DNA from: Methanocella paludicola SANAE
Lineage (GTDB): Archaea; Halobacteriota; Methanocellia; Methanocellales; Methanocellaceae
DNA: 64,000 bases
Assembly: GCF_000011005.1 (NCBI RefSeq)
Contig: NC_013665.1
Coordinates: 2,829,501 to 2,893,500 of the forward strand
Direction: 5' to 3'
In this document: positions 14,513-21,739 of the stretch, one piece after another
Layout of the letters: each line of letters opens with the position of its first letter
Numbering within the stretch: position 1 is the first letter of the stretch
Notes under the pieces: model-generated
Seen by the model: only the letters and a program-made list of their open reading frames with translations
Databases searched by the model: none
Told to the model about the DNA's origin: nothing
Translations under genes and position numbers: made by a program

Positions 14513-15001
14513 TCAGAGGGCGGCCATGGCGGGCATTTTAAGCGACCTCGCGAACTCGGCGGCCTTCGATTTATAGTCCCCGCAGGCAATTTCCCCGCTC
14601 AAGAACTGCCCGGAGCCCACGAACTCCATGCCCTTCGCTTCAAGCTTTCCCTTAATATCATTTATGACATCCTCGAAGCCGCACTTTCCTGCGGTGGCCA
14701 TCACGGCGAACTTTTTGCCCCTCACGTTCTTTAGGCCCGCGAGGTACTCGTTCACCGCCGGAGGCGGCAGCCAGGCCCAGACGGGCGTCGCGACCACGAG
14801 AAGGTCATACCTGCCCAAATCCTGCTCGCAAGGCTTGATCCTTGCTCGATCCTGCACCCATTCGCTCATGCACTTCATATCCCAGTTGGGGGCATCCACG
14901 GTGTCTATTCGCGTTATGTCGGCTCCCAGGATGTCCCTGACCTCCCCGGCGATCTTCCACGTGTTACCGGTTAAGGAATAGCATGCGACCAGCACTTTCA
15001 T
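14513..15001 (-). CDS. Flavodoxin
   Basis: The 162-residue protein has the FMN phosphate loop YSLTGNTWKIA, the 60s-loop region VVATPVWAW and a late GKKFAVMATAG strand; it is a long-chain-like soluble FMN electron carrier or WrbA-type relative. The start ATG 15001 follows a good GGGTGATAG ribosome site. It stands alone. The 287 bases between it and the DUF523 gene hold no gene or repeat I can support. Confidence 0.88.
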   Translation of the reverse strand: MKVLVACYSLTGNTWKIAGEVRDILGADITRIDTVDAPNWDMKCMSEWVQDRARIKPCEQDLGRYDLLVVATPVWAWLPPPAVNEYLAGLKNVRGKKFAVMATAGKCGFEDVINDIKGKLEAKGMEFVGSGQFLSGEIACGDYKSKAAEFARSLKMPAMAAL

Positions 15002-15256
15002 CCTATCACCCTACAGTTATTTAAAACAGGTTTTTTTAAAACTTTATGTCAATTTATAATCACTTATGGATGCTCCGACCACTCAATTAACATAATAAAA
15101 TGTGGGAAGCGAAGGCGGCATTGAAGCTCGATAAAGGCCGCAGATTTCTTATCCAGATAGGCTTTTTATCTTCCGCTAAAAGCGGGATTTCTATTTCCTT
15201 TGCCCATCATCTTATATTGGGTTTATATTTGTATTTTCCAGGTGTTGATAGATCGG

Positions 15257-15907
15257 ATGGACTGGAAATATTTTATTATCGCCATAATCATGGTCCTTTT
15301 GGGATGTGCGGCCATACTAGTTCCCCCGTTGTCCCGGGGAAGCGGAACTGAAGCGCCAGCGCTTCGGGTCTTAAAAGGAAATGGAACGATCGAGATCGCG
15401 GATCATCAAGGTTATGGGAGCGCCCAGTCATCACATCGCGAGATCGTCAGGCTTCCGGCCATGTCCGCCGATGAGGTGGAACGGCTCCTCGGGTCGCAGA
15501 AGATCTGCCGCATGGCGCTCAACGATACCCCCCAGCCCTACATCATAGCAATGGACTACATCTACCTCGATGGCAGGCTGTATTTCCACTTTGCGGACTA
15601 TGGGCGCAAGATGGATCTGATACGGAGCGACCCACACGTCACGGTAGAGATCGATAACTTCTGCGAAGGCACCCGCGACCTCTACACGATAACGCTCATG
15701 GGACAACTGGAGAAAGTGACTGATAAAATGGAGGGCGCGAGGGTGGCAAGAGCGCTGGTCGACAGCGCGAAAACCCGGGGCGGGGTTAAGAACGTGGCCG
15801 CCCGACACGGCCTCAGATCGCTGGACACGGGCGGGCTCATGTCGGAGCCCTCGACGATGTACCGGCTGATCGTGAGCGATTCCATCGGGCTCAAGTCCCC
15901 CGGCTGA
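15257..15907 (+). CDS. Membrane-anchored pyridoxamine 5'-phosphate oxidase-like (split-barrel FMN) protein
   Basis: One N-terminal membrane helix (YFIIAIIMVLLGCAAILV) is followed by a ~60-residue linker and a PPOX split barrel (LPAMSADEVERLLGSQKICR, YIIAMDYIYLDGRLYFH, GRKMDLIRSDPHVTVEI). The fold binds FMN, F420 or heme; the substrate is unknown. I favour ATG 15257, which begins with the helix, over the ATG at 15200; GTG 15242 is also possible. The helix would place the flavin domain outside the cell or tether it, which is uncommon in the family. It lies next to FAS1 and flavodoxin genes. Confidence 0.75.
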   Translation: MDWKYFIIAIIMVLLGCAAILVPPLSRGSGTEAPALRVLKGNGTIEIADHQGYGSAQSSHREIVRLPAMSADEVERLLGSQKICRMALNDTPQPYIIAMDYIYLDGRLYFHFADYGRKMDLIRSDPHVTVEIDNFCEGTRDLYTITLMGQLEKVTDKMEGARVARALVDSAKTRGGVKNVAARHGLRSLDTGGLMSEPSTMYRLIVSDSIGLKSPG

Positions 15908-17118: not shown

Positions 17119-17196
17119 CAGGTAATATGTTACCTGAACGAAACCCTTATATACTTTGGTAATATATTACCAATCGTTCAGGTAATATGTTACCTG
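17119..17196 (+). promoter_or_regulatory. Three palindromic operators around the MarR operon promoter
   Basis: Two identical 18-bp near-palindromes, CAGGTAATATGTTACCTG, lie at 17119-17136 and 17179-17196, and a perfect variant, TTGGTAATATATTACCAA, lies at 17156-17173. The shared core is GGTAAT-AT-N-TTACC. A TATA-like TTATATAC at 17148-17155 sits between the first two, so the second and third copies cover the predicted start of transcription. This fits autorepression by the MarR protein encoded in the operon. Confidence 0.85.
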
Positions 17197-17210
17197 TTGA
17201 AGGGAAACAA

Positions 17211-18020
17211 ATGGATAAGAGGATCATAATCATCGCTTCGGCCCTCATCGCCGTGCTCGCCATCGTGGCGTCCGGCGCCGGGCTGTTCATGAACGGTTTG
17301 TATAAGAACGACACGAAGTCAGGGGCGGCCCAGGAGCAGGGCAACGACCTGGTGACGCTGGTGCTGTGCGTGCCGCTTTTAGCAGTGTCGACGTATTACG
17401 CCGCCAGAGGCTCGCTGAGAGGCAGGCTCGTATGGACCGGCATGGTGTTCTACTTCCTGTACGTATACGCCATGATGTCGTTCCTGTCCGCCTACAACCA
17501 GCTCTTCCTCGTGTACGTGGCGGCGTTCTCGCTATCGCTCTACACGTTCGCCTACAGCGTGCTGACGCTGGACGTGAACGCGGTGAAGGAGAGCTTTTCG
17601 GGGGCCCCGACGAAAGCCGCAGCAGGGTTCATGTTCTTGATAGCGATCGCCGTATCGGCGATGTGGCTGGGCATGATCGTACCGTCCCTTTTAACGGGAG
17701 AGAGGCCGGTTGCGCTGGAGACGTACACGACACTGGTCGTCCAGGCGCTCGACCTCGGCGTCATCGTGCCCTTGAGCCTGATCGCGGGCGTGCTGCTGCT
17801 GCAGAAGAAGGCATGGGGCTACGCGCTGGCGTCGCTCATATTCGTCAAGGGCATAACCCTGGGCACTGCGGTGCTCTCCATGGCGCTGTTCATGAGCCTG
17901 AACGGCGTGGAGGTAGTGCTGCCGCAGGTCGCCATATTCGTCCTGCTGGTGCTGGGTGCCCTGGCGCTGGCCATCATATTCTACGGTAAGATGAAAGTGC
18001 CGGCCGCATCGGCCGCATAA
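17211..18020 (+). CDS. Polytopic membrane protein, first gene of MarR-regulated operon
   Basis: The 269 residues form about seven or eight membrane helices with short loops (first IIIIASALIAVLAIVASGAG, last VAIFVLLVLGALALAIIFYG). No conserved charged motif or named family was recognised. The start is ATG 17211, after GAAGGG and directly below the third operator; an in-frame GTT/TTG upstream would fall inside that operator. The next gene begins 14 bp later, so it is co-transcribed with redox proteins. Confidence 0.75.
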   Translation: MDKRIIIIASALIAVLAIVASGAGLFMNGLYKNDTKSGAAQEQGNDLVTLVLCVPLLAVSTYYAARGSLRGRLVWTGMVFYFLYVYAMMSFLSAYNQLFLVYVAAFSLSLYTFAYSVLTLDVNAVKESFSGAPTKAAAGFMFLIAIAVSAMWLGMIVPSLLTGERPVALETYTTLVVQALDLGVIVPLSLIAGVLLLQKKAWGYALASLIFVKGITLGTAVLSMALFMSLNGVEVVLPQVAIFVLLVLGALALAIIFYGKMKVPAASAA

Positions 18021-18034
18021 TGGAGGTAAAAGCA

Positions 18035-18451
18035 ATGGTTAGCGTACTATACTATTCGATGACCGGGAGCACGAAGAAGATGGCCACGGCCATCGCGGAA
18101 GAGCTGGGCGTGGAGGCCCTGGATGTGAAAAAGGCGGCGTCCGTCCCGCAGGACGGGGTCCTGTTCATGGGCTCCGGGTGCTACGGCGACAAGCCGGGAG
18201 ATGACATGGCGAAGTTCATCGCCGCCCACGACTTCGCGGGCAGGAAGGTCGCCCTGTTCGGCACGTCCGGCGCCGGCGCCGGCAGGGAGGTGGATGCCAT
18301 GGCGGAAGCGTTGAAAAACAAGGGCGCTACGGTCCTCGGAACCTACCACAGCAAGGGCAGGGCGTTCGTCCTGGTCAACATCGGTCACCCGAGCAAGGAT
18401 GAGCTGGACGGCGCCCGGAAGTTCGCGGCGGAGATGGCGAAGCTTGGATGA
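18035..18451 (+). CDS. Short flavodoxin-family protein
   Basis: The 138-residue protein has the FMN phosphate loop YSMTGSTKKMA, then VLFMGSGCYGDKPGD and KVALFGTSGAGAG, typical of flavodoxin-like domains used as electron carriers or small flavin reductases. ATG 18035 is chosen because an earlier ATG at 18020 is itself part of the ribosome site ATGGAGGT. Its last 8 bases overlap the TTG start of the MarR gene, so translation is coupled. Confidence 0.85.
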   Translation: MVSVLYYSMTGSTKKMATAIAEELGVEALDVKKAASVPQDGVLFMGSGCYGDKPGDDMAKFIAAHDFAGRKVALFGTSGAGAGREVDAMAEALKNKGATVLGTYHSKGRAFVLVNIGHPSKDELDGARKFAAEMAKLG

Positions 18452-18959
18452 CATCGAGCAGACGAAAGCGGCGTTCGCCTCCAGCCGCATCGACATGGCG
18501 AAGTTCATCCTGGTCATGGTGTTCCTGATCGAGCAGCGGTGGAGCTACTACATCGGGAAGGATCTGGAGGAGGACGGGATCACCACGAAGCAATGGCTCA
18601 TGGCCCTGGTCATCGCCAACGGGTTCAAGCATGCCCCGTCCATCCAGGAGGTGGCGGACGCGATGAGCACGACCCACCAGAACGTGAAGCAGATCGCGTC
18701 GGGCATGGAGCGCCAGGGGCTCATGAGGCTGGAGCGGGACGAGAAAAACAAGCGTATCATCCGGCTAAGGGTCACTGAGCATTGCTTCCGGCTGTTCAAA
18801 AGCCGCGAGGAGGGCGACGTGAGGGCGGTGCTGAGCATGTTCGAGAATATCTCGGACGATGAGCTGAGGGCGCTGTTCAACGTCATCGCAAAGATGGAGC
18901 ACAGGGCCGACGAGCTCTACGAGGGCGCTAAGGCCATGAGAAAGGCGAAGGAGTGTTAA
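18444..18959 (+). CDS. MarR-family transcriptional regulator
   Basis: The 171-residue protein has long N-terminal dimerisation helices, a winged helix at about 52-115 (PSIQEVADAMSTTHQNVKQI as recognition helix region, then DEKNKRIIRLRVTE as wing) and a C-terminal helix pair. Start is TTG 18444, inside the flavodoxin 3' end; a longer upstream frame is out of place. It lies inside the operon it probably represses through the three GGTAAT palindromes at 17119-17196. Two unpaired Cys are present (C-terminal EC and HC), so redox sensing is possible but unproven. Confidence 0.88.
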   Translation: MDDIEQTKAAFASSRIDMAKFILVMVFLIEQRWSYYIGKDLEEDGITTKQWLMALVIANGFKHAPSIQEVADAMSTTHQNVKQIASGMERQGLMRLERDEKNKRIIRLRVTEHCFRLFKSREEGDVRAVLSMFENISDDELRALFNVIAKMEHRADELYEGAKAMRKAKEC

Positions 18960-18960
18960 A

Positions 18961-19527
18961 ATGAGATTGAAGGATATCGTTGTAGCTGTAGTGGCCATCC
19001 TGGTGCTTGCCGTGCTGGCGGCGTTCGCGGCCATGGGGTTCGTGCTCATGGACGGCATGAGCTATACGGCCACGGGCCACGAGACGCTGAGCCCGGCAGG
19101 GGCTGAGTCGGGGAGGGCGCTGGTAGTTTATGATCCGGGCATCACGGGCCGGGCGAAGGACGCCGCGGCCACAATAGCGGGCGACCTGCAGGCTAAGGGA
19201 TATGCGGTGGACCTGTGCGGCATCAGGAGCGCCGGGGCCTGGAGGACGTCCGGCTACGACGTCATCGTCGCGGGCGGCCCCGTGTACGTGGGGAACGCCA
19301 GCGGCTCGGTCAGGTCATACCTGAGCACGCTGAAGGCCGACGAGGGCACGAGGCTCGGAGTGTTCGGCACGGGCGGCACGGACCTGGGGAGCGATGATCC
19401 GGCGATCGTCCGGAAAGACGTGGCCTCGGTCGATACATCGCTCGAGATCAAGGCGGCCATGAAGCTTCTGGAGTATGATGATGCCGATGAGAAATGTGCG
19501 GTGTTCGTCGAGGAGCTTCTGAGGTAG
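18961..19527 (+). CDS. Membrane-anchored flavodoxin-like protein
   Basis: An N-terminal membrane helix (IVVAVVAILVLAVLAAFAAM) is followed by a flavodoxin-like fold: ALVVYDPGITGRAKDAA at the phosphate-loop position, DVIVAGGPVYVGNASGSV, and RLGVFGTGGTDLGS. The phosphate loop lacks the usual T-x-T/S-G-N/S-T, so FMN binding may be altered. It begins 1 base after the MarR stop. It is probably a tethered partner of the soluble flavodoxin two genes upstream. Confidence 0.78.
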   Translation: MRLKDIVVAVVAILVLAVLAAFAAMGFVLMDGMSYTATGHETLSPAGAESGRALVVYDPGITGRAKDAAATIAGDLQAKGYAVDLCGIRSAGAWRTSGYDVIVAGGPVYVGNASGSVRSYLSTLKADEGTRLGVFGTGGTDLGSDDPAIVRKDVASVDTSLEIKAAMKLLEYDDADEKCAVFVEELLR

Positions 19528-19538
19528 GGATTCGAGAG

Positions 19539-20132
19539 ATGAGCTTTCTGTACGCGCTCAAGCCCGAAAAGGACCGACTGATGTGCCCCTTCTGCCGGGC
19601 GCTCGGGTCCGCGGGCGTGACTCCGAACATGGTCACGGCGGCCGGCCTGCTGCTCTCGATAGTTTCGGGGTTGCTCGCCGCATCCGGCGAGCTACACTGG
19701 GCTATCCTCGTCTTCCTGGCGGGCGCCGCACTGGACGCCCTCGACGGCTCCCTGGCCCGTGCCTGCGGCATGGGCTCCGAGTTCGGCCGGTACTTCGACA
19801 GCTTTGCGGACCGGGCTTCCGAGTTGTTTTTCGTCGTCGGGGCGGTCCTCGGCGGCGTACCTGCTACGGCCTTCCTGGTCGTGCTGGGATCGTTCGTCCT
19901 GCTTGGGGCAAGAGTATACAACCACAGGAAGGGCCTGAGCTCCAACGCCGCAATGTTCGGGCGGCCCGAAAGGCTGGCGCTATTGGTCGCGGGCCTGCTG
20001 TGCCAGGCGCCGTTCGACACGGCGTTCTTCGCTGCGGCATTTGTGCTCTGCCTTGTATCCTCGGCCCAGGCCCTGGCCTCGGGCAACATACAGAAACTAA
20101 TGCAAAAAATAGATCGATATATCAGTCGGTAA
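19539..20132 (+). CDS. CDP-alcohol phosphatidyltransferase
   Basis: A 197-residue membrane enzyme with the full signature D-G-x2-A-R-x8-G-x3-D-x3-D (DGSLARACGMGSEFGRYFDS, then FAD). It transfers a lipid-phosphate from CDP-lipid to an alcohol such as serine, glycerol phosphate or inositol phosphate. Which alcohol cannot be told. It starts at ATG 19539, 11 bp after the previous stop, and closes the MarR operon, linking it to polar lipid synthesis or membrane repair. It converges on the PPOX gene with a 5-bp gap. Confidence 0.88.
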   Translation: MSFLYALKPEKDRLMCPFCRALGSAGVTPNMVTAAGLLLSIVSGLLAASGELHWAILVFLAGAALDALDGSLARACGMGSEFGRYFDSFADRASELFFVVGAVLGGVPATAFLVVLGSFVLLGARVYNHRKGLSSNAAMFGRPERLALLVAGLLCQAPFDTAFFAAAFVLCLVSSAQALASGNIQKLMQKIDRYISR

Positions 20133-20137
20133 AAAGC

Positions 20138-20587
20138 TCAATACTCCAGTACGTGCCTTACCCCGAGGCCCCGGGCCTTGAGAGTAGTGTCGAGGTACTC
20201 TATTTTCTGAGGCGTCACTTTCAGGATGCTCATGAACTCCGGAATGCTGACGCCCTTGAGCCTCCGCCGAGTTTTATAGGCCTCCACGCCCTCATCGAAG
20301 ATCTTAGACCCGGCCTTGCCTATTTCGGCCGTGCCGGTGATCTGAACGCCCTTGATGCTGTCCCAGCCGGTGAACTGGGTATGGATGGCCACCGAGACGA
20401 CGGGATTGGCGGAGATGTTGGCGAGTTTCTGGCCGCCCTCCGTGAGTATATAAAGGATGGTGCCTGAAGGAAAATACTCCACAGCGGACGCCCGTGGCAC
20501 GTTGCCGGAGCACGTCGCCAGCACACACATGCCATGAGCCTTCAGGAATCCCGAGATAAGGCGTTCGAGTTCTTTATCGCTGATCAT
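20138..20587 (-). CDS. Pyridoxamine 5'-phosphate oxidase-family protein
   Basis: A 149-residue split-barrel protein (GMCVLATCSGNVPRASAVEY, GTILYILTEGGQKLANI, NPVVSVAIHTQF, then GVQITGTAEI). These small PPOX proteins bind FMN or F420; many are flavin reductases of unknown substrate. Start ATG 20587 follows GGCGGTAAC; longer in-frame starts extend past the family's usual N-terminus. It is transcribed alone, opposite the MarR operon. Confidence 0.82.
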   Translation of the reverse strand: MISDKELERLISGFLKAHGMCVLATCSGNVPRASAVEYFPSGTILYILTEGGQKLANISANPVVSVAIHTQFTGWDSIKGVQITGTAEIGKAGSKIFDEGVEAYKTRRRLKGVSIPEFMSILKVTPQKIEYLDTTLKARGLGVRHVLEY

Positions 20588-20860
20588 GTTACCGCCCGTT
20601 TTTATTCTACAAGGAGTTGTGTTTCCCACCTGACATATATAATGTTTACTGATAAGTAGCAAGATATCCCCATATGCCTACGTTTAAAGCCATATTGAGC
20701 GGAATAGCTGGAGTAATCGCCGTTCTGCAAGTCCGCCTCGCCACCCCGGCATAGAAAAATAAGAAAATATATAATGAAAAAACATTAATAATGACAAAAA
20801 GCCTCATATAGGCCTATAGATATAATTTGGATGATAGATTCATCGATTTTAGTGATGGTC

Positions 20861-21739
20861 ATGGTGGAGCTAACGGTAATACAGCGGGAGATACTTTCCG
20901 CGCTAATCAACTTATTCCGGGAGAAGGGCCGGGCCGTGAAAGGGGAGGAGATCTCCGAGCGGATCGACCGGAACCCCGGCACGGTCAGGAACCAGATGCA
21001 GTCGCTCAAGGCGCTGGGCCTGGTGGAGGGCGTGCCAGGGCCCAAGGGCGGATACAAGGCCACCAGCACGGCCTACCAGGCGCTGAACCTGACGCACATG
21101 GACAGGGAGGCCGAAGTGGCCGTCTACCGGAACGGCGAGCGGATCATGAACGCCAACGTGGCCGAGATCGACCTGAACACGGTCCGCCACCCCGAGCTCT
21201 GCCGGGCCAGCGTAAAGATACTGGGAGATGCCCGCGTATTCAATATAGGCGACAGCATCCAGGTCGGCCCCACCCCGGTGAACAAGCTCGTCATAAGGGG
21301 AGAGGTCGTTGGCAGGGACGACATCAACAGCGTCATCCTGTGCAGCATCAACGAGATGATCTCGCTTCCCAAGAAGCCCGTGCGGGACTACATCAACCAC
21401 CGGCTCATCACCATACCCTCCGGGGCCACGGTGAAGGACGCCCTCGTGGTGCTGGCGAAGCACGACATCCACGGCGCGCCCGTGGAGAAGGACGGGAGCA
21501 TCGTGGGCATGGTCACCTATACCGACATCGGCCGGGCCATCTCGAGCGATAAGACCGATGATAAGGTGACCGAGATCATGACCCCGAACGTCATCTCCAT
21601 CGACCAGGAGAAGCCCATGTACGAGGCCGTGTCCGTCATGAACCAGAATAAGATCGGCCGCCTTCTCGTTACCGGCGAGGGCAAGCCTAAGGGCATGATC
21701 ACCCGGATGGACGTCATCAGCCGGCTGACCACTTATTGA
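20861..21739 (+). CDS. Transcriptional regulator: winged HTH plus C-terminal CBS pair
   Basis: The 292 residues start with a winged helix (VIQREILSALINLFREKGRA, then GEEISERIDRNPGTVRNQM). A middle domain (about 75-165, RNGERIMNANVAEIDL) follows, then two CBS motifs (about 172-290, MTPNVISIDQEKPMYE). It is the archaeal HTH-CBS regulator type, likely responding to adenylate or SAM-like ligands. ATG 20861 or 20855 fits the homologous N-terminus better than 20831; GTGATGG precedes them. It converges on the aldolase gene across a terminator. Confidence 0.82.
   Translation: MVELTVIQREILSALINLFREKGRAVKGEEISERIDRNPGTVRNQMQSLKALGLVEGVPGPKGGYKATSTAYQALNLTHMDREAEVAVYRNGERIMNANVAEIDLNTVRHPELCRASVKILGDARVFNIGDSIQVGPTPVNKLVIRGEVVGRDDINSVILCSINEMISLPKKPVRDYINHRLITIPSGATVKDALVVLAKHDIHGAPVEKDGSIVGMVTYTDIGRAISSDKTDDKVTEIMTPNVISIDQEKPMYEAVSVMNQNKIGRLLVTGEGKPKGMITRMDVISRLTTY

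Follow-up and report, generated by a model that had tools for sequence, protein, structure and literature searches.

The locus and its promoter

The window, by which the whole analysed stretch of 64,000 nucleotides from Methanocella paludicola SANAE is meant, contains five ORFs that lie almost contiguously on one strand, behind a promoter region in which a palindromic core of 14 bp, GGTAAYATRTTACC, occurs in three copies around a TATA box. All five genes of the operon that had been put forward in a preliminary description are present, and the features, in window coordinates and with the evidence for each, are the following:

17119..17136, no strand assigned: operator 1, CAGGTAATATGTTACCTG (motif excess over shuffles; kept in four genomes)
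17146..17154, + strand: TATA box, TATA-like CTTATATAC (sequence; three relatives have a similar element in the corresponding position, between sites 1 and 2)
17156..17173, no strand assigned: operator 2, TTGGTAATATATTACCAA (motif excess over shuffles; kept in relatives)
17179..17196, no strand assigned: operator 3, CAGGTAATATGTTACCTG (motif excess over shuffles; kept in relatives)
17211..18020, + strand: mem1, polytopic membrane protein of 269 aa, about 8 helices, no Pfam family (profile searches, homologue alignment, locus comparison)
18035..18451, + strand: fld, soluble short flavodoxin with an intact phosphate loop, SMTGST (Pfam, NCBIfam, homologues)
18444..18959, + strand: marR, MarR-family regulator, TTG start likely (Pfam, orthologue alignment, MarR structures)
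18961..19527, + strand: mfld, N-terminal TM helix and flavodoxin-like domain with an altered phosphate loop, YDPGITGRAK (Pfam, homologues)
19539..20132, + strand: cdpOH, accessory CDP-alcohol phosphatidyltransferase with the full D-x2-DG-x2-AR-x8-G-x3-D-x3-D motif (Pfam, NCBIfam, motif)

The likely starts (17211, 18035, 18444 as TTG, 18961 and 19539) were set from homologues and ribosome-site context, those of fld (18035) and marR (the TTG at 18444) being probable assignments. The start of mem1 was placed at 17211 and not at an upstream ATG that sits within operator 3. The operon is flanked by a flavodoxin-like gene and two pyridoxamine-oxidase-type (PPOX) flavin/F420 proteins (14513-15001, - strand; 15200-15907, + strand; 20138-20587, - strand), and an HrcA-like winged-helix and CBS-domain protein is encoded further downstream (20831-21739, + strand).

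That three palindromes flank the TATA box had already been noticed, and the closer inspection bears this out: the BRE/TATA is closely preceded by operator 1, the TATA box is immediately followed by operator 2, and operator 3 lies beyond the predicted start site. Matches to the core with at most two mismatches, counted on both strands, are far above chance (6 observed, 0.28 expected in shuffles), and a genome-wide motif search of the 2,957,635-bp single-contig genome found exact or one-mismatch operators at the mem1 promoter only. Further two-mismatch sites in the M. paludicola genome were no commoner than those of a reversed-pattern control, and for this reason no wider regulon is claimed in this species.

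Footprint in related genomes and the MarR regulator

The triple operator stands upstream of mem1-fld-marR, always in this gene order, in all four Methanocella-group genomes compared (M. paludicola and its relatives). The sites follow a common layout, at about -90, -54 and -30 before mem1 with the TATA-like element between the first and the second, and their spacing hardly varies (37-39 bp for the first pair and 22-23 bp for the second, which is about 20 in G001), some sites in relatives G001 and G003 differing from the consensus by one mismatch. Beyond the mem1 promoters, the triple layout was found in one extra place, on contig C8 of G003, ahead of a DUF6544/DUF6920 gene (L154:7396-8352, that is, G003 C8:36395-37351). 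Such a recurrence is the behaviour to be expected of a real operator, and this second promoter is a putative extension of the candidate MarR regulon in that relative.

The product of the third gene matches Pfam MarR_2 (PF12802) at 3e-7, with 30.9 bits against a cut-off of 27, and MarR structures at up to 1.6e-10, which places it among the MarR winged-helix proteins. Its orthologues in the four genomes are 63-65% identical and share an invariant stretch, SIQEVADAMSTTHQNVKQ, the recognition-helix region being invariant; at E<=1e-12, orthologues are restricted to the four operator-bearing genomes out of 345 in the phylum. One Cys is also invariant in the four orthologues, at a position occupied by Gly in the aligned structure 3nqo, which, with four sequences, is only a lead towards thiol sensing.

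The palindromic operators thus lie at the regulator's own promoter, in three sites and in all four genomes, as in MarR-type transcriptional repressors, and this phylogenetic footprint lends strong support to the MarR control that had been predicted for the operon. Repression by occlusion, together with autoregulation, would follow from the operators' place over the TATA and start region and from the position of marR within the operon, and the autorepression of the operon by MarR can be regarded as well supported by this sequence evidence.

The membrane protein and its flavodoxin partner

The first gene has no relatives in Pfam, NCBIfam or PDB searches; weak matches to Spore_YabQ and Myelin_PLP appeared in distant homologues only and were dismissed as chance. 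AlphaFold2 models of mem1 (from a two-sequence alignment) and of mfld (from a single sequence) reached a pLDDT of about 49, too poor to be used. No His is invariant across the aligned mem1 homologues, which makes a haem-based electron transfer unlikely. The second gene is a more familiar protein: fld matches Pfam Flavodoxin_3 at 1.3e-11, three flavodoxin models score above cut-off, and its SMTGST loop fits the S/T-x-T-G-x-T pattern of the FMN phosphate loop, as in genuine flavodoxins.

Homologues of mem1 occur sporadically in Halobacteriota and are also found in a few bacteria and on plasmids of haloarchaea. Of the 29 loci examined, 14 have a flavodoxin gene within 350 bp of mem1 and with the same orientation, a count in which some of the flavodoxin queries come from these same loci and the flavodoxin identity rests on Pfam or on the record annotation; about one mem1 locus in two lacks an immediately adjoining flavodoxin. 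The haloarchaeal genomes checked encode one or two Flavodoxin_5 genes each, one of which adjoins mem1 in five of seven, so the adjacency in haloarchaea is not explained by chance. This recurrence across archaea supports the redox theme proposed from the sequence. A nitroreductase-like gene adjoins mem1 in two more loci, and it has a DUF6544 gene as neighbour in Deinococcus sp. NW-56 and at the haloarchaeal locus L091, independently of the G003 promoter. CPBP protease and LiaF-domain genes lie near mem1 in several haloarchaea, which makes an envelope-stress role plausible. The plasmid-borne homologues (L158-L171, haloarchaeal and bacterial) are often found near CPBP proteases, LiaF-domain, bactofilin-like and MFS genes.

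These partners also admit a reading without any stress system, in which mem1 with its flavodoxin would be a tetrapyrrole dehydrogenase of the HemG kind, or another biosynthetic redox pair, and MarR would sense a metabolite of the pathway. The haloarchaeal partners match Flavodoxin_5 at 1e-36 and two nearby flavodoxin copies are annotated hemG; nonetheless, the best matches of the Methanocella fld are Flavodoxin_3 and short flavodoxins instead of HemG, and MarR control without other operators in the genome would be unusual for a biosynthetic step, which leaves this reading unlikely.

The mem1-flavodoxin pair is a broader and more interesting discovery than the five-gene grouping. As a tentative proposal, to which we give somewhat less than even chances, both proteins may constitute a membrane redox unit not described before, horizontally mobile and sometimes accompanied by DUF6544, that is spread across methanogens and haloarchaea, in many cases on plasmids, that extends to bacteria through homologues of mem1, and that in Methanocella would be controlled by a three-operator MarR switch. 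It ties two families without known function, mem1 and DUF6544, to flavodoxins across archaea, and the function of the pair is testable in genetically tractable haloarchaea.

The mfld-cdpOH cassette

The tethered protein is a more divergent case, with 21.4 bits (3.5e-4) against Pfam Flavodoxin_5, below the cut-off of 27, even if a profile of its own family finds flavodoxins at 1e-4. Its phosphate loop is altered to Y-D/N/T-P-G-x-x-G in all eight homologues and departs from the FMN pattern, which makes FMN binding doubtful. It has one TM helix, and in most homologues the N-terminal flank of this helix is more positive than the C-terminal one, so that the domain may face outward, to judge from the flank charges. 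Almost all strong matches to mfld come from the Methanocella group.

The last gene, in turn, is a clear CDP-alcohol phosphatidyltransferase, with a match to CDP-OH_P_transf (PF01066) at 4.2e-21 and a complete catalytic motif, DxxDGxxAR(x8)GxxxDxxxD; the M. paludicola genome encodes five CDP-alcohol transferases in all, this one included.

As for the occurrence of the gene set in other archaea, mem1-fld-marR was found in all four genomes, whereas mfld-cdpOH follows marR in M. paludicola only; in the relatives it adjoins or nears TetR-type regulators instead, often with FMN-reductase-like flavoproteins. The combination, under a single repressor, of two flavodoxins with a lipid enzyme, which had been singled out as unusual, is therefore not conserved and, on gene order, is species-specific. 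The operon really comprises two modules, namely the conserved core mem1-fld-marR and a separate cassette, mfld-cdpOH, whose genes are linked in each of the six cassettes with cdpOH that were seen in genomes of the Methanocella group. A second copy exists in M. paludicola itself, adjoining TetR-type regulators (L034:5845-7549, C1:577-578 kb). Larger TetR-flanked clusters with several flavodoxin and FMN-reductase-like genes are also found in Methanocella-group genomes (L032:5199-10730 and L037).

This linkage favours regarding the locus as a membrane-lipid modification operon, in which cdpOH would attach the head group of a lipid and the flavodoxins would supply the electrons to reduce or tailor it. 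A phospholipid-methyltransferase-like (PEMT/ICMT-like) gene lies between mfld and cdpOH in L034, another PEMT-like gene lies near an mfld-like gene in L037, and cdpOH is an extra copy beside genes that more closely resemble the archaetidylinositol phosphate (AIP) synthase. However, the core does without a lipid enzyme in three relatives, and orthologues of cdpOH also occur in another family (f2), where the one locus examined (L123) has no flavodoxin neighbour, so the probability of this reading is low.

As mfld-cdpOH is not under the MarR operator in relatives, its co-function with mem1-fld may be incidental; the further step of supposing that MarR controls only mem1-fld and that the cassette, found after marR in just one genome of four, was inserted downstream without any functional tie is quite improbable, since a TetR-fld-mfld-cdpOH cassette of G003, only 2.6 kb from mem1-fld-marR, includes an orthologue of the soluble fld, and G002 pairs that flavodoxin with mfld (L036), which suggests a shared role.

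Proposed mechanism

The reading that we favour, and consider rather probable, is that of an autoregulated inducible operon in which an inducer frees a MarR-repressed membrane redox or envelope-stress module. MarR dimers on the three operators would wrap the promoter and block TBP, TFB and the RNA polymerase, until the regulator was released, either by a small compound of lipophilic or redox-active nature or by the oxidation of the single conserved Cys. Mem1 and the flavodoxin, once derepressed, would act as a redox pair that likely reduces or detoxifies a membrane-active compound or repairs envelope damage, and in M. paludicola, where the operon has gained mfld-cdpOH, the response would further include a flavodoxin-like protein anchored in the membrane and a change of lipid head group.

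The operators and their conservation, the co-directional gene order and both linkages (mem1-flavodoxin and mfld-cdpOH) are supported by the sequence and by the genome comparisons. Induction by a redox- or membrane-active compound would be in line with the established behaviour of MarR regulators (e.g., PMC8765430) and with the flavodoxin partners; the repression, the inducer, the substrate, the electron flow and the lipid product are inferred. The regulatory anatomy is convincing and the biochemical function is a reasoned guess. In any case, with the unusual clarity of its operator layout, the operon is a ready model for the study of MarR repression in archaea.

Comparison with known systems

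Literature searches found nothing on a mem1/flavodoxin/MarR/cdpOH gene set; the nearest known systems resemble it in part. In bilirubin utilisation (BilQ/BilS, NF045593/NF045594), MarR and a flavodoxin are also encoded together; BilQRS identity was rejected, with NCBIfam scores far below the cut-offs (26.9 of 125 and 37.6 of 155), and Pfam and NCBIfam profile searches of the five genes in the operon revealed no enzyme resembling BilR. The haloarchaeal mem1 partner does belong with the HemG-type flavodoxins (Flavodoxin_5), whereas in Methanocella fld has its nearer relatives among the short flavodoxins and a porphyrin substrate is without evidence.

Regarding the archaetidylinositol phosphate synthase and other CDP-alcohol phosphotransferases, cdpOH shares their superfamily and the complete catalytic motif, but represents a separate subfamily with an N-terminal MSxLYAxKPxKD. 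Its identity as an AIP synthase was rejected, given the 93.7 bits that it scores against NCBIfam NF040950 (cut-off 180) and the better candidates elsewhere in the genome, where two other CDP-alcohol transferases outscore it, the best paralogue with 154.

Among the regulators, MsvR is likewise found in methanogens and has a DNA binding modulated by cysteines (PMC3729527), in contrast to which the protein described here is of the MarR family and has a single invariant Cys, its redox sensing being hypothesised. MarR-family regulators are also known to control flavin-dependent quinone reductases, as RrpA/RrpB and MdaB of Campylobacter jejuni exemplify (PMC8765430). The Methanocella operon has in common with them the association of a MarR-family regulator with a flavin redox protein and the redox-stress logic, and differs in its archaeal promoter, in the three operators around the TATA box, and in the presence of a membrane partner, a tethered flavodoxin-like protein and a lipid enzyme.
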